Source of the DNA: Lutjanus erythropterus
Lineage: Eukaryota > Chordata > Actinopteri > Lutjaniformes > Lutjanidae
Assembly: GCA_020091685.1 (NCBI GenBank)
Contig: CM034607.1
Coordinates: 9,111,465-9,175,464 of the forward strand
Length of the DNA: 64,000 nucleotides
Reading direction: 5' to 3'
Under the pieces are notes generated by a model. It ran no database searches. It was not told the origin of the DNA and saw only the letters and a list, made by a program, of their open reading frames with translations. Below, piece by piece: positions 6,192-56,226 of this stretch (its first letter is position 1; every line of letters starts with the position of its first letter). The position numbers were made by a program, and so were the translations under genes.

Positions 6192-7217
6192 CAGAAGTGG
6201 CAAAAGTACCCGCATTCTGTACTGAAGTGAAAGTAGTACATGACTGAAAAGGTGAAGGTAGAAGTCAACTGCTTAACTTGAGTAAAAGTGAGAAAGTCCA
6301 GGCTCTGAAATGTACTCAAAGTATAAAAGTCAAAAGTCGTCCTCTGAAGGACATTTCTACTGGTTGTTTCTGTGCACAACTGAACCTCAGCCTTTCTCTG
6401 CAGTCGAGTCTCCCTCTCCTGTCTTTTTACATTCTTAACGTAGTTTTTAGTGTCATTACGTCTTTTTCAGCATGTTAGGTTTTTTTTTTTTTTTTTTTAC
6501 TTTTTACGTCGTTTTAGCTGTTTTTATTTCTAGCGATGTCTTTTATGTTGTTCTTTACCAGGTTGTGTCTTTTTCATCTTGTTTTTTGTCTTGTTGTGTT
6601 TTTTTGTTTGTTTGTTTTATTACCTCTTTTTTTTAAATCTTGTTACGTCTTTTTGGTATTGTTACATCTTTTTCATTGTTTTTGTGTTGTTATGTCTCTT
6701 CTGTTGTTTTTTGTCCTGTTATGTCTTTTATGTTGTTTTTCACCATGTTGTTTGTTCATGTTGTTACGTCTTTTATGTTGTTTCTCATCTTGTTTGTTTT
6801 GTACTGCTACATCTTTTAAATTGTTTTTGTGCCTTGGTATTGCCTTCTTTTACACCTTTTCTTTTTCTATTGTTTTTGTCTTGTTATGTCTGTCTAATTG
6901 ATATTCTGTGCACTGATGGATACACCAAGAAATCATCTTTTCTATGTGTTATTGTCCCATCCACTAAGGTTTAAATCAGTTTTTGATAATGGGATAAAAT
7001 AAAAATAATCAATCATTCCACTCAAATGCATTGAAACTAAAGTAACAGGGCTCTTTTGAAAATGTGCTGAATAGAAAGTTCAGATATTTGTCTTAAAATA
7101 TAGGGTGTAAAAGTAAAAAAGTTATCAGAAAAAAAAACTCAAGTACTCAAGTAAAGTACGGATACCTGAATACTCTGCTGAAGTACAGTATTTGTACTAA
7201 ATTGATTCCCACCTCTG
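6192..7217. mobile_element. hAT-like miniature element with internal pyrimidine minisatellite
   Basis: Terminal sequences CAGAAGTGGCAAAAGTAC (6192) and CCCACCTCTG (ending 7217) are inverted, and subterminal AGTACTC/AAGTAC motifs repeat at both ends. This is typical of non-autonomous hAT elements of fish. No clear 8-bp target duplication was found. The middle (6480-6900) is a T-rich array of GTTNNGTCTTTTNNGTTGTT-like units. Two other copies of the family lie at 30681 and 49840. Confidence 0.7.
6480..6900 (+). repeat. Pyrimidine-rich degenerate minisatellite
   Basis: Recurring units built from TTGTTATGTCTTTT, GTTGTTTTTC and CATCTTGTT at about 20-40 base intervals, over 80% T+G+C on this strand. 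It yields long but meaningless Phe/Leu/Cys-rich open frames. A homologous array lies at 31180-31400. Confidence 0.7.
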
Positions 7218-18784: not shown

Positions 18785-21700
18785 ATGGGTAAGACAGGAC
18801 CGGTGATCTTGCTGCTTCTAGGTTAGTGCATAATCAGTAACAGTCCTAATTAATGGATCACTAAATTAATATGTGTGAATATGTTTTACAAGCTTCTGCA
18901 AACAGTCACTGAATTCATTTCCTTTCAGCACTAGCAACACTTTCCCTGGGTGTTTCCAGGGAATACCACATTGTGCAGCTGTTGAAGACCTGGAGTGGAG
19001 CTCGGAGTTACTGTAGAGAGCATTTTGCTGACCTGGCGACCATAGAGACTGTGGAGGACTGGGCGAGACTGAAAACAGTATTGAATGGCGCTGCCAGCAT
19101 TGCATGGATAGGGCTTCATGATGACATTCACAGCTGGAGGTGGTCCGCTGACGATACGTATCTCTACGGGGATGGAAACACTAATCTCGGGGGATGGTTT
19201 GATTTCGTAAACCAAGGTGGATACCACTGTGTGGACATATTTGGCAGCCAACTATATGACCGCTCATGTAGCGTTCAACAATACTCAGTGTGCTATAATG
19301 GTGAGTATGCACTTCTTTCACAGTATTTTTCATTGTCTGGAATTAATTATTCATTAACTTAATTGAGATTTAGTTGTGTTAATGAATTATGATCTAGAAC
19401 TGTCAGTCATTCCGTACACTTACAGGGACAATATAAATAATAAAATCATTTTAGCTGTAGAGCTATTTATCCATCCAGATTGTTTTGGTGTGAGTTGCCC
19501 AGTTTTGAAGATATCAGCAAAGAGGTGCCTGCCTTCTCTCGAATGTAATGGAATGGAGAAAATATCTTTGAAAAACTCAAGATAATCTAGACTTCATTTT
19601 GAGCAGTTTTACATGGGATTTATTTTCTTTCAGCCAAGTTACACCGACCAACTTGTCCCCGTGTGGAAGGAAGTGTGCATCTACTCATGGATGAGAGGTT
19701 ACAGCTCAGCTGTGGAGTATGCCCAATTACTTGCTTTTGACGCCATTGGAGTTCTCACTGTTGGATGGCTTTCTTCTGTTTCACAGTACTTTGCACATTT
19801 GCATAGTGTGTCAGAGCTGAAAGAATCAAAAGATTGAACATTAGCGAAAACACAACAGTAAGAGCTGATTAAGATAAAACTCATTATGATCAATCCATAG
19901 GATCTTTTGACGCCACTGGAGCATCGAAGAAGAATTCATTTACCAAAGTCGACTTTCGTGTTTTTAGGGGCCTCGCTGTACAAAAGCACAACTTTAAACT
20001 TTATTCATTGGGGTGAAACTGGATTATATTTTACCCACATTTAGCACTATTGGTGCATGCTTTCTTTCAAAACTTGGTAACTTGCACCAAAACAATAAAA
20101 ATAGGATTATTGGTACAGGTAAAGACCATGTTACAACATTACTAAGACAACTCCTCTCATGGATTTGCTGTATAATTTTCAGAGTTGACCAAGGAGTACA
20201 TTGCGGTTACGGTTCCTCTGACCTGGTGGTCAGCTCAGAGGCACTGCAGGGAGAAATACACAGACTTGACCAGCATGAGAAGCCAGCAAGAGAAGAAGGC
20301 GATCCTGAGCGTGATTGATGGTCAGTCACACTGGTGGGTCGGTTTGTCCAGAGTTACTTGGGGGTGGTCTGACCGGAGTAACTCTTCGTATAGACAGTGG
20401 TGGAGAAGAGAGCCCAATGGCCGAGGAAGAGAAAAATGTGTAGGTACTTTAATGGGAGGATGGGCTGATCTTCCTTGTGACCGGGAAATTCCATTCATCT
20501 GTTCAGGTAAGCACTCAAATTGCATTCCAATAAATCAACCAAATTTTAATTTCAAACATCAACAAACATAAATGATCTATGAAGAGGTTTGGGTTCACGT
20601 GTCCCACAAATTGTTACCTGTTTCTGTAGGTGTTTAAAGTAGTTTCTGTTGACACATTAAAGACACATTAATTATTATTTTTCTGCAGTTCCCATAATGA
20701 AGCTGTTGAAGGTTGTAGTGAAAGCTGAAGGATTTGTGGACCTGAATGTTCCCCCAGTACAGGAAGCTGTTCTGAACCATGTAAGTCTCATTCCTCCTCC
20801 GAGCGATTTGAGTGTGATCAAGAGTCTACTACAGCCATGCTAACGTCCAACAATGCTACTATCTGATGATTAGTAGTAGATTACTATAGTATTTAGTGTA
20901 ACATTTACCACGCCAAACCATTTTTGTTTATAATGTTAGCATGCTAACATTTGCTAAACACTAGTTTAAACACCTTCTTGCTGCCTCACAGCAAGAAGGT
21001 CCTGTGCGGAGTTTGCATGTTCTCCTCATGTCTGCGTGGGTTCTCTCCAGGTTCTCTGGCTTCCTCCCACAGTCCAAAGACATGCATGCTAGGTTAATTG
21101 GTGACTCTAAATTGCCCGTAGGTGTGAATGTGAGTGTGAGTGGTTGTCTGTCTCTATGTGTCAGCCCTGCAATGAACTGGCGAATTGTTCAGGGTGAACC
21201 CTGCCTCTCGCCAAATGTCAGCTGGGATAGGCTCCAATGAATGAGTAGTGATTTATGATGAAAAGTTTAGTGATCAACAAAGTTAGTCAACAGCAGCATA
21301 TTGCTGCCAAGCCAGAAAAAGAAAACCTGATCAGTATCATGTTACAGCATAAACATTTTATTATTATTAAGAAATATTCATGTTATTATGACCATACAAA
21401 CATGTCATGTTTTTTGTTATAACAAAATGCAATTTATTATCTTGTTATAATGTGAAACATTTCATATTGATAAGATTAAACCTACATAATATCTACATAA
21501 ACAAGTCATGTTATAATGGGATAACTTGTAACATGATAAACTGTTATAGCATAAAACATTTCATGCTACAAAGTGATATCTTATGTAAAGCAGCATATTG
21601 TTATAATCAAAATGGAAATGATCTTGTTATAACAATAAAGTTTTCATGTTGTAACATGATACTGAATTTTTTTGCTTTTGTTGGCGTGTCAGTGATTCAC

Positions 21701-49839: not shown

Positions 49840-50020
49840 GATATGCCTTTTATACCTTTTACACTGTTTTTGTCTTGTCTTAAGTAACAAGCCTCTTCTG
49901 AAAATGTAAAGAGTAAAAAGTATAGAAATTTGTGTCCAAATGTAAGGAGAAAAAGTTTTCTTTTTTCGGAAAAAGAAATACTCAAGTAAAGTACAAATAC
50001 CTGAAATGTACCACAAACTA
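49840..50020. mobile_element. hAT-like element, right-end fragment
   Basis: Contains CTGTTTTTGTCTTGT, TCTTCTGAAAATGTAAAG and ACTCAAGTAAAGTACAAATA, matching the right half of the element at 6192-7217. No left end. Confidence 0.55.
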
Positions 50021-50720
50021 AGTCTGTAGTTTCTGCACAGTTCTGGGCATTTATTATAAACTCTTATACAGATAAAGTTTTTTGGGGAGACGGTTTTTAA
50101 ATATTTCTGGTGTGTATAAGAGAAACTAATCTTCCCTTGCCCAAAATTGTACTTAATCAGATGAAGCAATAAACACATAGATAACCACTGGATCTCTGCA
50201 ACAACACAAGAGCATTAGTCACATAGAGAGGAATATAGTCAGATGATGAATGTGGCCAGACAAATGATGCTGCAAATGAGGTTTAAATGTAAATGTGCAG
50301 GTTGTGTTCTTGGCTTGATTGACGAGTGAAAGGTGGACGTAGTTTGCCTTCAGCATCAACAGACTTTGAGCAGCAGCAGACAAACGTCATGTAGAGCAAC
50401 TGGACAGAATCAGGAGCAGCTGATTGATCTCTCAGACGGCAAGGCACCCGTGTTAAGCTCGCTCGTCTGCTTTACTATATTTGCGTTCGGCATGAGATGA
50501 AGCTGCAAGGCAAATTACGATGGCAGGTTAAGACCAAACAAATCACACCGGTGTGTCCTCGGATGCTGTTGAATTCAGCACTGCAGGCAAATGCTGTTAT
50601 ATCCACTGCAGCTTCTAGGTGTGTGTGTTCAGTGGTGTCTATACACCAGATGCCAGAGGAACTCAACAGTCACAGCTGGAGCAGACAGGACTGAAGAGTT
50701 CCTCAAAGCAAGTAACAGGC

Positions 50721-50813
50721 GTACTTTAAGAATGTTTTAGTACAGTCATTAACAGGTAATTAGTGACTGTACTAAAACACATTCTTAAAGTACAGTCACT
50801 AATTACCTGTTAA
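50721..50813. repeat. Two overlapping inverted repeats
   Basis: Palindrome A: arm 50721-50748 pairs with 50764-50793, identical except for a 2-base CA insertion, loop 50749-50763. Palindrome B: arm 50749-50773 is the exact reverse complement of 50789-50813, loop 50774-50788. The right arm of A and the left arm of B overlap at 50764-50773, so only one hairpin can form at a time. Both loops are 15 bases. Confidence 0.95.
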
Positions 50814-51213: not shown

Positions 51214-54200
51214 TTCTGCCACTGAACAGACAAGAATCTGCTGATTATTTGTCCACATGAGGGTATTTTACAGCACTACAATATACATAGAAAAAGCCTG
51301 TGAATAATACAGCTGTTTCTTTAAATCAGATGTCAAGTCCTTGGATGGTGACAGTATGTTCACAGCTGAAGGAAGAACTGTCACTGTACTGTGATGTTGT
51401 TTCTTTCTTGTGATTTAAAGACTCGATCTTGTGAAGATGCAAATTTCATGTTAAACCTTCACCCAGGGAATCACAAGAGGCCATGATAATGAACTAACTG
51501 TATCTGTAATCTGATTACACCCTTTTTCATGTAACTTACCTTTTTGAATCCTAATTACATAATCCCACTAAACACTAAAACTCTTGAAAGCCTGAATTCG
51601 ATAGGTGACCAGCCTGCACTCACTGTGGCAATTGAAGCCGAATATGACTTTAATTTTTGATCACAAAACATGACAAATCTGATTTCATTTAGGTTTGCAC
51701 ACATCAGGTTGGTGCTCAGTGATGTGTGACTCATTTGATTGCTCTTTATAGAGTGGTTTACAAAGAGAACTAAATCAAAAGTTTAATTTGGTTCAGTGTT
51801 CATTGTAAATCAATATTCTTAGAGATAGTATCGGTCTTCCTATTCAGTGACTTAAGTGCTGACTGGCTATTCTACAGAAGTGACTTAATCAACCACACTC
51901 ACAAGAAACAACAGACCCTATTTAATCTAGAGTTTCCACAGTGGTACAGTTCATTTTCAGACTGAACTCAACTATGAGTTATAGTCTAACAAAACCAACA
52001 AAATGGACCAAGTATGGAAATACAGCTGGTGACTTTTTATCCAGGGACCAGGGGAGGCGATAAAAAATGTACTAATGTATCACACAAGTATATTTAAATA
52101 TAAGTAAAAGGACTTTATTTGTATTTGCTGAGCAGAATGAACATATCATAATAAAACATCTTAAGTTCATTAAAGATACTTCAATTAGTGCATTTTTTTA
52201 CAATAACTACCTTTTATAATACAATTTGTTAGAATGAATGACTAAAGTAAGCAAAAAGTACCTCAATAAGTGTTAAAAATATGTGACATTTAAAATACTC
52301 ACTGCCATCATGATGCCAACCCAATGACTCAGTGGTTCAGTTTATTTATAGGACCCAACACCGCACATTTAGCTTCTGTCTTACCTCCAGTGGGGGAATG
52401 TACCTGAATACATTTACTCAGACACTGTACTTAAGTACAAGGTATTTGTTCTTTTGTTTTATGCTACTTTACACTTTTACTCCACTCAGAGTCAAATACT
52501 TTTTACTTTTTTTTTATTGAAATATGTCTGAAAACACATGAATCTAACATTATGTCATAAGATAAATCAGCCTATTTGTGAAAAACACAAACAGACAAAA
52601 AAAAAAAAAGCTTTAACGCAACACTGACAAACAGTTACCCATGAATCCTTGTGCTATCATGTGAGCTAGCTATCTTAGATCAGTATGCAGCACCTATCCA
52701 TAATAGTAGCTAGTTAGCTACATAGTATTAGTCAAAATTGGCCAGTTGGCTGTATTATTACCCCAGACTCAGACTCATTCAGACTCTCTGTGAGCCACAA
52801 TGGATCATTTCGTAGCCAAAGTGCCGAGGGTGGGGCTATCACAGCTACAGGTAAACACAAATGAGATAATGCCCAAAAATATTCAATGCAGTATTTGTAG
52901 TAGGGGGTCCCTGCTCCATCTCTCTATTATCAAAGAGGTCCATGACCTGAAAAACATGAAAGATCGCTGCTGTGTATCTTTAAGCTGAAAATGACAACTG
53001 AAATAAACAAGTTTGCAGATTTTACATGTCCATAATTCAAAACATCTGCCAGTTATCTACCCAAAACTGACTGTTGTTGTTAGTGTGACATCAGTAATTC
53101 AGTCTGCATAATTACCACTAAGAATTCTCACCTCTGATTGGCTGAAAGGTGTGGATTAAGTCTTGTCGTCCCAGTGAGGTTACCAGGTAAGGAAATATTG
53201 TGCTTGTCCAGAAACTTTATCTCTGTTTTGATTAATTTTCCTAAATTGTGTTTTTTTGGTGCACTTCAGGGAATATTAATCAAACTGTGTTGGGTTGTTT
53301 TCGATAAGATATCTAAACAATTTTTAATTTCCTGAATTGAGTTTTTTTTGTTGTTGTTGTTGTTTTTTAAATTGCACACTCAAGAGAATATCTGTCAAAC
53401 TGGTGCTGGCTTATATCTGTTTTTGCAAATTAACTCTCATCATCGTTTCCTATATTTGATTTGTACTTCTCTGGTAATTTTAATTTTATTTTCAACTACA
53501 ATCTCTTTCCAGCTATGTGTTCAGGATAGAGCATATGGAATAAAACACCTATGCAGGTGCATACCAGCCTGATTACACACACAAATGTGAACCTATCTAC
53601 ACTAACAGGCTGAATAACAGGACACAATAGTAAATTAAGAGTGGAGAGGGGTTCAGTACAGAGTAGGTGAGTGGCACTAAGCAGTAATGAGGATGGGGAT
53701 TATTCTTTGCAGTGACAATGGTGCACCTGTGTTCTCTGCAGACGGAAATACAGCATAAACACAATATTGAACAAAGAGCTCAAGATGTGTAAATCTCTGG
53801 GATATTTTTACCAGCCTCCTATTTTAGTGAGGTGTCTTCATCATCAAGGGTAACTGGAACATTGTCCTTGCATCCCAGTGTTATTTATGACCGTTTGATA
53901 ATTTACCACAAATACAAACAACAGTGCCTATATTATGCACACTTCCCAAAGCCAGCTCATTGTAAATCCCTTTTCTAAACTTTTGAGTTTATGGGCAGTA
54001 TGTATTTGAAAGTGGGAGTGGTGTATTTATTGTTCACCATATTCACATGGTGGCCATGGGTGGGAAGCTCATATGTCATGCTAATGTGTAAGTTACAATA
54101 TAAATACTGAGAATCTGAAAAATTGTTATCATGTCACTGCAACCAAAAAACATGGATAGTAAAAATCTAGAGGGATATTGGCCCAAAGACAACATATTGG

Positions 54201-54426
54201 ATAACCAATTAGCTTCAGTTAGACAATAGCAAACATTAGCATATATGACAACATGCCCAGTGGAACACATATATCTGTGTATTGTTCATACAGAATACAT
54301 CCAACACAAAAGTGTTAAAAAAAACATAAGATCCGACTATTTGTCAGATTGTTTTTGTTTTGTTCCATAAGATGACATTCCGATAATCCCTGTTACATGC
54401 CAAAATACTCTTTGTGTCTTGTAGTA
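51214..54426. other. Intergenic, no gene recognised
   Basis: AT-rich, with the hAT end at 52390 and short T-rich tracts. No coding support. Confidence 0.4.
52390..52515. mobile_element. hAT-like MITE end fragment
   Basis: GTGGGGGAATGTACCTGAAT, then TACTCAGACACTGTACTTAA, GCTACTTTACACTTTTACTC and CACTCAGAGTCAAATACTTT form the well-known left end of a fish hAT-type miniature element. Truncated at a T run. Confidence 0.65.
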
Positions 54427-54590
54427 TAATGCTGGCATCTGGCTAATGTAATGCTAGCATGTGGCTGGTGTAATATTGGCATGTGGCTAGTGTAATGCTA
54501 GCATGTGGCTAGTGTAATGCTGTCATGTGGCTAGTATAATGTTGGAATGTGGCTAGTGTAATGCTGATATTGGCTAGTATAATGCTAGTG
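54427..54590 (+). repeat. 22-bp minisatellite
   Basis: Seven and a half units of consensus TAATGCTAGCATGTGGCTAGTG (22 bases, shown as TAATGCTAGC plus ATGTGGCTAGTG), about 85-95% identical, one unit a base shorter. Confidence 0.9.
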
Positions 54591-55019
54591 TCCTTAATCC
54601 ATTTTTTTTCCCTCAGTTTCCCTTTCTTCCTTTTCCCCTGGGTTACTTTTAAGTTGTTGTCTTGCCCCTCATTCCAGAGCCAAACCTTGGGGTCGTAACA
54701 GTTGGGGGTCAGTTGGGAATCATCCCTCTAGACCAGCTTAGCTTAACATTACTTGGCCCAAACCTTCAGCAAGACCACCAGGCTTTGAAGCCAATTTGAC
54801 AGTGGCCAACCTGTGTAATGTTAAAGTCACACCATGCTCTAAGGCCAAAGAAGACTTTCTGCCCATAGATTTACATTGTCAAAGAAGCTGCCGCTCTTGA
54901 GGAGCCACACAGCTAAATATTTTTTTTTAGGTTATGTGAGCTCAGAGATGATGTCACCAGTTCAAAAGCATCATGTCACAGCTGATGACATCACAGTGAT
55001 GTCACAGGTGCAGAAGTTA

Positions 55020-55245
55020 GTATATATAGGTCAAGCAGATGATTATAGACTAAGTTCAAGCCAACCCGCTCCCTTACAGGATGACTTAAGGGGCGGGTTG
55101 CCAACAGGCCCGTGGCTACGATTACTGTACTCGTAGCCTGAGTGTTCCGTGTAGAACACTCATATGGGCCTGTTGCACCAGGAAGGTCTAAGCCTTCCTC
55201 TGGCTGAACGCAACCCGTTCCCTTACAGGTCAAGGGCGGGTTGCA
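55020..55245 (+). ncRNA. Candidate structured RNA: five hairpins including a three-way junction
   Basis: TATATATA (55021-55028) is followed by: hairpin 1, 55062-55076 with 55087-55100 (14 pairs, one bulge); an outer perfect 10-bp stem, 55102-55111 with 55166-55175, enclosing two perfect hairpins, 55114-55121/55131-55138 (8 bp) and 55139-55147/55154-55162 (9 bp), a 74-nt three-way junction; hairpin 4, 55180-55186/55193-55199; and hairpin 5, 55210-55217 plus 55220-55224 with 55232-55236 plus 55237-55244. Hairpins 1 and 5 share CAACCCG, CCCTTACAGG and CGGGTTGC. Upstream lie TGATGTCA at 54949 and 54997 and TGACATCA at 54986. I do not recognise a known RNA family. It could also be part of an unclassified mobile element. 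Transcription is inference only. Confidence 0.35.
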
Positions 55246-55275
55246 AAAGGGTCTTAGGGTAGGATGGGACCTGCT

Positions 55276-56226
55276 CAGTGGTGGACAGTAGTGAAGTACA
55301 TTTACTTGAGTACTGTACTTAAGTACATTTTTTGACTATCTGTACTTTACTTGAGTATTTGTTTTTTTGGAAACTTATTACTTTCACTCCACTACATTTG
55401 TAGGAAGGTTGTTGTTACTTTTCGACTGAGCTTTGAAGTCAGCTGTTGGTGTTTTTTTCTTTTCTAAAATGCAGTTGGTCACATGCTGTGTTCCTCACAA
55501 AAGAAATCAAATGGGATTGATGTAAAAGTGGAAATACATCATCCAGGCGCTCTCTGTAACAAGAACAAGCAAGCTCTCCCTCTTTCATTCAAACAAAAAG
55601 TGGTAATGGTGACGGCAGGAGAAAGACAAAATTAAATCTCAAGATGTTATTATAATTATTCATTATTCCAGGTAGCTTTTAAAGTTGGATTGTTTTTATC
55701 AGCATAATTCATGTATATACTGCCTCTGAGGACAGAAAGAAATCTCAGTTATTTAACAGACTTGGAGAACTTCTTACAGTTATCTTCAATCTAATGTTAT
55801 GATGTGATTTTAATACAGTTACATCAGAAAATGACAATAACTGTCCTTTTTGTTTTTGATTGTATTTCTATGCTGAAGTTTTTATAGGTGTTTCTATAGG
55901 CTTTGTGTAGCAGAGTGGTTCTACAAGCATCAGTGCATCATTAGATGGTTTCAGAGAGTTACAAGCTTCTGTAAATGCATCATGAAAACAATACAACATG
56001 TATTGATATTAGAAAATGTACTTTGTAATTTTTACTTTTGAATACTTAAGTATTATTAAAAACATGTACTGTTGAATACTTAAGTATTTTTAAAAGCAAG
56101 AACTCTAGTACGTTAACTCAAGTAAAATTTTGACTGAGCAACTTTCACTTGTAGTTGAGTAATATTTGACCAGGAGTATCTATACTTTGACTTAAGTACT
56201 GGGGTTGAGTACTTTGTCCACCACTG
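55276..56226. mobile_element. hAT-like miniature element, complete
   Basis: Inverted ends CAGTGGTGGACA (55276) and TGTCCACCACTG (ending 56226), with many subterminal AAGTACTTNA, TTACTTGAGTACTG and ACTTAAGTAC motifs. Length 951 bp. No transposase frame, so non-autonomous. The 8 bases outside each end do not match. It lies immediately to the right of the multi-hairpin module. Confidence 0.8.

Follow-up and report, generated by a model that had tools for sequence, protein, structure and literature searches.

The hairpin module described here is very probably part of the cargo of a young, non-autonomous composite hAT transposon, in which two non-coding MITEs enclose a tandemly repeated unit and move with it as one block. 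The module was found in a 64,000-nucleotide stretch of the genome of Lutjanus erythropterus (contig CM034607.1 of assembly GCA_020091685.1, positions 9,111,465 to 9,175,464), referred to below as the window. A sequence-only reading of this DNA had left the choice between a structured transcript and an unclassified mobile element; the latter idea proved right in substance, as the module is dispersed inside hAT-type composites with target-site duplications.

Structure of the hairpin module

The hairpin cluster is real and far beyond chance. All the features that had been described from the letters alone, namely the set of hairpins and its three-way junction, were recovered at the same positions (Table 1), including the TATA box, which lies 34 bases upstream of hairpin 1. 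The earlier judgment that so much nested pairing would be unlikely by chance agrees with the RNA fold of positions 55050-55250 (201 bases), which has a free energy of -109.2 kcal/mol and a z-score of -9.10, with 0 of 200 shuffled sequences as stable. A DNA fold of 54940-55250 gave a z-score of -12.07 (0 of 100 shuffles as stable), and the module emerged as the strongest structure outlier in the whole 64 kb when 1276 windows of 200 nt were compared after GC correction. The hairpin stretch has a GC content of 55%, versus 39% across the window. In the window copy, 73 of the 75 base pairs are Watson-Crick and 2 are G-T. Hairpins 1 and 5, previously noted as near copies, have 18 of 19 bases in common over CAACCCGyTCCCTTACAGG; the seven loop bases absent from hairpin 5 in the window are present in the other copies spanning that loop.

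Table 1. Coordinates of the features of the module, its neighbors and the related loci (window positions unless a locus is named)
Feature	Position	Strand	Evidence or remark
Segment A (CRE-like array, TATA box, hairpin module), recurring unit	54920..55275	+	genome matches
Three CRE-like octamers, TGATGTCA, TGACATCA, TGATGTCA (starts 54949, 54986, 54997)	54949..55004	+	
TATA box, TATATATA	55021..55028	+	15/16 aligned copies
Hairpin 1 (CAACCCG...CGGGTTG)	55062..55100	+	sequence and fold
Three-way junction, perfect 10-bp closing stem CAACAGGCCC/GGGCCTGTTG (55102-55111/55166-55175)	55102..55175	+	
Junction arms, 55114-55138 and 55139-55162	within 55102..55175	+	
Stretch X, GGGCCTGTTGCACCAGGAAGGTCTAAGCCTTCC	55166..55198	+	probably related to 5' region of a Harbinger-like element
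Hairpin 4, AGGAAGGT-CTAA-GCCTTCCT	55180..55199	+	
Hairpin 5	55210..55244	+	near copy of hairpin 1, 7 loop bases missing
GACCTGCT, end of A	55268..55275	+	in relatives flanks T on both sides or directly precedes S
T, 951-bp non-coding hAT-type MITE, ends CAGTGGTGGACA (at 55276) and TGTCCACCACTG (ending 56226)	55276..56226	+	
Spacer S, 215 bp, (TTTA)n and AATAAA in hairpin loop	L012:4870-5084		
Block target duplication, L014			CACGTGAC
Block target duplication, L016			CATACACC
Block target duplication, L023			AGAGGAAC
Block target duplication, L038			CAAATAGC; block without A
Block target duplication, L039			ATGAATTG; block without A

The search of Rfam that had been suggested for this stretch returned no family at the gathering score, either in the window or in six relative loci, and permissive scans of 54900-55300 and of a 1241-base tandem stretch of locus L011 gave sub-threshold matches only, the best of which in L011 were miRNA models falling on palindromes of the CRE-like array. 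ARAGORN, run with bacterial settings, reported no tRNA or tmRNA gene. Consistent with the initial remark that no tRNA, snRNA or ribozyme was recognizable, no matches were found for any of these classes, and all three were set aside. We also rejected a parvovirus-like terminal hairpin (no long closing stem and no coding context seen) and a LINE/SINE-type retroposon with a (TTTA)n tail (the copies extend past the tail). Exact-pattern searches of viral contigs gave no matches, and the phage records returned a 28-base match at E = 4 in two records of one phage.

Elsewhere in the window, the second most structured spot (50601-50800) displays palindromic, repeated TTAGTACAGTCA/TGACTGTACTAA-like arms and is probably another MITE. 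A 22-bp minisatellite of 7.5 copies (54422-54586) sits just upstream of the module, and two open frames on the + strand (18916-19360 and 20179-20570) contain C-type lectin domains (PF00059, E = 2.1e-14 and 1.1e-16, respectively).

A young repeat family built from three segments

The module is part of a young non-coding repeat family and is not unique. A DNA search of the window's own genome (938 Mb, 444 contigs; all match counts are lower bounds) identified at least 39 matches, and at least 16 of these, the window itself included, cover at least 260 of the 311 bases at 86-100% identity. We compared 9.9 kb around 20 places, 6 kb around eight, approximately 6 kb around four, and five short stretches. 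In 12 of the first 20 loci (the window's own locus apart), homology to the window begins at 54909-54922; in most loci it reaches 55275 or nearly so, with a second block starting at 55276. Three segments describe the loci: A, S and T (Table 1). A and S alternate as a tandem unit of approximately 590 bp, with spacings between successive A starts of 590, 599 and 583 bp in L011, L012 and L016, respectively. A tree built from 16 copies has a star-like shape and short branches, and the masked flanks of 20 loci have only scattered repeats in common, recurring at no more than three other loci per 100-base bin and with a single match longer than 350 bases.

Several loci (L010, L011, L020, L022, L024, L025 and L028) lack a complete T alongside, and their endpoints vary; these T-free copies may be decayed composites, or pieces spread by another route. 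At L024 (4613-5088), the hairpin region is present, together with S, as two partial copies in inverted orientation; they lie inside a larger inverted repeat, the outer flanks of which are likewise inverted.

Insertion of T and probable movement of T-bounded blocks

T contains no stop-to-stop frame of 120 amino acids, and its terminal inverted repeats are of the CAG...CTG type (CAGTGG...CCACTG), with the same ends found at its relatives. CAG-type ends and 8-bp target duplications are hallmarks of hAT elements. The T-S joint in the loci reads CCACTG-GACCTGCT-GCACCAA; because GACCTGCT stands before T or S and again between T and S, we conclude that the insertion of T split the A|S joint and duplicated eight base pairs there. 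In a pattern search, the T|GACCTGCT|S joint was found with 0-2 mismatches at seven family loci among 48 matches in total, the remaining 41 of which had 2-3 mismatches (a reversed control gave eight). Three short stretches of the window (7096-7199, 49937-49999 and 52388-52439), which match the left end of T at 75-79%, represent older relatives of the T family.

Six loci carry T at both outer ends. In five of them (L014, L016, L023, L038 and L039) the whole T-...-T block is surrounded by perfect 8-bp duplications, agreeing at 8 of 8 bases, so that two T copies bound the cargo and have one target duplication in common—the arrangement that defines a composite transposon. At the sixth (L040), the outer T ends are truncated and one of the eight flanking bases agrees. 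At L021 the left T has shrunk to a few bases, yet ATCAAAAC is present on both sides. The window copy consists of one A and the right-hand T, with the left side lost entirely; no exact counterpart of its right flank, AGAATAAC, occurs on the left within 2 kb. The perfect duplications around T-bounded blocks argue that the module is mobilized as cargo, with a hAT-type MITE on either side.

We infer a history in which a tandem S-A array of approximately 590-bp units came first, its founder already containing the hairpins. T would then have inserted once at the A|S joint of such an array, and unequal exchange would have supplied a second T, giving T-S-A-S-A-T. A hAT transposase provided in trans could act on the outermost T ends and move the whole block, each move leaving a new 8-bp duplication, and the copies would later lose parts. 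The cargo, with its promoter-and-leader layout, would be carried passively, i.e., by hitchhiking. Against plain hitchhiking stands the divergence outside CpG sites at seven loci, which amounts to 1.9% in the left part of the cargo and 2.9% in the hairpins versus 4.6% in T; the hairpins are less diverged than T in 17 of the 21 pairs of these loci, the pairs not being independent of each other. T may have been overwritten by other T copies.

Proposed Harbinger-like ancestry of part of the cargo

Sequence comparisons within the genome lead us to propose, with moderate confidence, the 5' end of a Harbinger-like element as the ancestor of part of the cargo. Allowing up to three mismatches, stretch X was located at 26 places: at 24 it is accompanied by other parts of A, and at the remaining two, L029 (3006-3042) and L030 (2975-3049), X alone is embedded in another palindromic, GTAGCAACC-rich repeat. 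Copies of that GTAGCAACC-rich repeat at L041 and L042 are without X at that point. Two other loci, L043 and L044, are diverged relatives with 157 bp in common at 78%. When the S-A unit was compared with the 5' regions of L043 and L044, scores of 45 and 41 were obtained, versus maxima of 26 and 25 in 100 shuffles; the resemblance concerns X and the A|S stretch. Without X, the terminal stretch of L044 scored 26 and beat all 200 shuffles (maximum 24), whereas that of L043 did not.

At L043, an open frame begins just downstream of the 5' region; judged by eye, we take it to resemble the first part of a Harbinger transposase. Queries of Pfam and PDB with this frame gave nothing of note. Some 600-740 bases further on lie three degraded pieces, one of which has a DDE_Tnp_4 match (E = 1.4e-4) at 21.9 bits, below the curated cut-off of 24.8.

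Promoter-like layout and the question of selection on the fold

The sequence-only reading had interpreted the three CRE-like octamers as products of CpG deamination. Among 14 aligned copies with letters at these positions, the undecayed octamer TGACGTCA is found at the middle site (54986) in eight, at the third (54997) in one and at the first (54949) in none; because of these counts, the deamination idea is borne out for the middle site only, with no clear support at the other two. Across A and S, the cargo presents in order the CRE-like octamers, TATATATA, the hairpins, (TTTA)n and AATAAA, the last of these in the loop of a short hairpin (CCAACC...GGTTGG) that lies upstream of the CRE array when the tandem is read through. 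Transcription between the TATA box and AATAAA would yield a putative RNA of approximately 430 nt. The RNA fold of the corresponding stretch of L011 (5140-5575) has a z-score of -7.32, with the signal residing in the hairpin stretch and the CRE array.

This layout could be taken to mean that Pol II transcribes the S-A unit: CREB/ATF sites and a TATA box would direct the synthesis of a structured, approximately 430-nt RNA with its 3' end downstream of the AAUAAA of the hairpin loop, and the fold of this RNA would be selected for the spread of the element or for the host. We consider this explanation unlikely, with evidence pointing in both directions. The TATA box, 34 bases ahead of hairpin 1, is kept in 15 of 16 copies, the AATAAA lies in the S hairpin loop, the L011 stretch folds strongly, and the cargo, as described above, is less diverged than T. 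Moreover, variable columns are rarer in stems than outside them (20 of 142 versus 24 of 76, P = 0.004), and substitutions preserve the fold beyond random expectation: when substitutions were placed at random in 16 copies, the summed folds were less stable than observed (0 of 100 as stable), and 42 unique events, compared with CpG-matched placements, cost 1.44 kcal/mol on average versus 2.31 expected (0 of 2000). However, the mean cost rises to 1.77 versus 2.24 kcal/mol (P = 0.07) when the loop at columns 79-84 is left out, and to 2.03 versus 2.30 kcal/mol (P = 0.21) when the loop of hairpin 5 is omitted as well; the loop-over-stem substitution signal thus rests on two variable loops. The fold of L013 is worse than 99% of its substitution simulations, and Rfam provides no match.

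A covariation test, of the kind put forward earlier, was run on 18 copies from this genome, and the result was no better than in shuffles. Pairing was observed in 99.0% of cells, versus 98.9% in shuffles, and both-sided change was seen in 1 of 71 pairs, a level reached by 120 of 500 shuffles among copies too alike for much power. As regards the proposal of a structured transcript whose structure matters, the fold itself stands; a role for it gains no support from the covariation, equal to that of shuffles, from the stem protection, which disappears without two loops, or from Rfam, where no family matched at threshold. Matches confined to a transposon and devoid of paired substitutions had been named at the outset as the result that would count against the proposal, and this is largely what the genome contains. 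Neither selection nor neutrality of the fold is proven by these data.

A second explanation, which we regard as quite improbable, places the relevant structure in the DNA: palindromes derived from inverted transposon ends would form hairpins or cruciforms that promote tandem duplication, rearrangement or excision. The two strands of 55051-55250 fold nearly equally well (-109.2 and -109.1 kcal/mol), almost all pairs of the window copy are Watson-Crick, and both the inverted duplication of the hairpin region at L024 and the tandem copies at L011, L012 and L016 would fit such a role. Yet 13 of 18 copies have G-T instead of A-T at two stem positions of hairpin 1, which is poor for a DNA stem, and the blocks at L038 and L039 still have target duplications without A, though these may be later internal deletions. 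Finally, it is most improbable that the S-A unit is the LTR of an uncharacterized retroelement, with E-box-associated CREs, a TATA box, a long structured R region and AATAAA: the layout, similar to that of deltaretroviral LTRs, is all that favors it, whereas the units abut in tandem, T-free copies end at differing points, the target duplications belong to T, and, when the tandem is read through, AATAAA comes ahead of the CREs and is distant from the TATA box. Comparison of 20 loci revealed no direct repeats around a coding interior, and no coding or other flank or interior in common.

Relationship to known mobile elements

Transposition as a composite, the reading we favor, relates the family to several known systems. 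T resembles non-autonomous hAT MITEs in its short inverted ends, its 8-bp target duplications and the lack of visible coding capacity; unlike the usual members of this group, two such elements here bound tandem cargo and move as one block. In bacterial composite transposons and in Ac/Ds macrotransposons, two copies of a smaller element mobilize the DNA between them. The fresh target duplication around the whole T-bounded block is a feature in common with such composite or 'macro' transposons. The present element differs from them in having two non-coding end elements around a cargo made of a tandem, promoter-like and hairpin-rich unit; its transposition is deduced from the duplications.

Judging from the available portion of the report concerned, the coral CMITE group is the closest described analogue that we found (PMC2872659). 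In that portion, CMITEs and CMITE-IN are described as having interiors whose origin is unknown and whose conservation exceeds that of the ends; tandem arrays and a new element created through MITE insertion are described as well (PMC2872659). A conserved interior, tandem arrays and an element made by MITE insertion are thus common to both families, whereas the coral elements have piggyBac-type ends instead of the hAT type seen here, and the same text portion mentions no promoter-like or multi-hairpin cargo (PMC2872659).

As to the PIF/Harbinger, ISL2EU and NuwaI elements, the likeness consists in X and the A|S stretch resembling the 5' region of the local Harbinger-like element; in the parts of the source at hand, the ends of NuwaI and ISL2EU start with GGG or GG, and these elements are found in fish (PMC4482050). 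Unlike PIF/Harbinger elements, the composite uses hAT ends for its movement and generates 8-bp duplications, and a Harbinger relationship is proposed for only part of its cargo. Extracts of two further papers describe three imperfect CREs overlapping E-boxes in BLV (PMC7601775), and TATA, AATAAA and long stem-loop R regions in LTRs (PMC3601003). The cargo recalls the deltaretroviral LTRs of BLV and HTLV-1, as far as these extracts go (PMC7601775), in its three imperfect CREs near E-boxes, TATA box and structured leader—a likeness of layout only; no LTR ends or coding interior were found here. In the open-licence PMC literature, no paper, judged from its listing, concerned the exact strings of the module, T or X, and queries on MITE stem-loops, composite hAT MITEs, foldback satellites and macrotransposons yielded no matching element among the matches listed.

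Implications

The family provides a well-bounded, vertebrate-type composite element with two MITEs, tandem cargo and perfect target duplications, and it illustrates how the cargo of a transposon can come to look convincingly like a 'structured RNA behind a promoter'. A bolder scenario, which we deem very doubtful, would have two non-coding hAT MITEs capture a tandem cAMP-responsive promoter unit and structured RNA, partly from Harbinger ends, with the composite spreading because promoter and folded transcript help it, e.g., by opening germ-cell chromatin. Should the cargo indeed be transcribed and selected, the element would represent an unusual DNA transposon with an RNA part.
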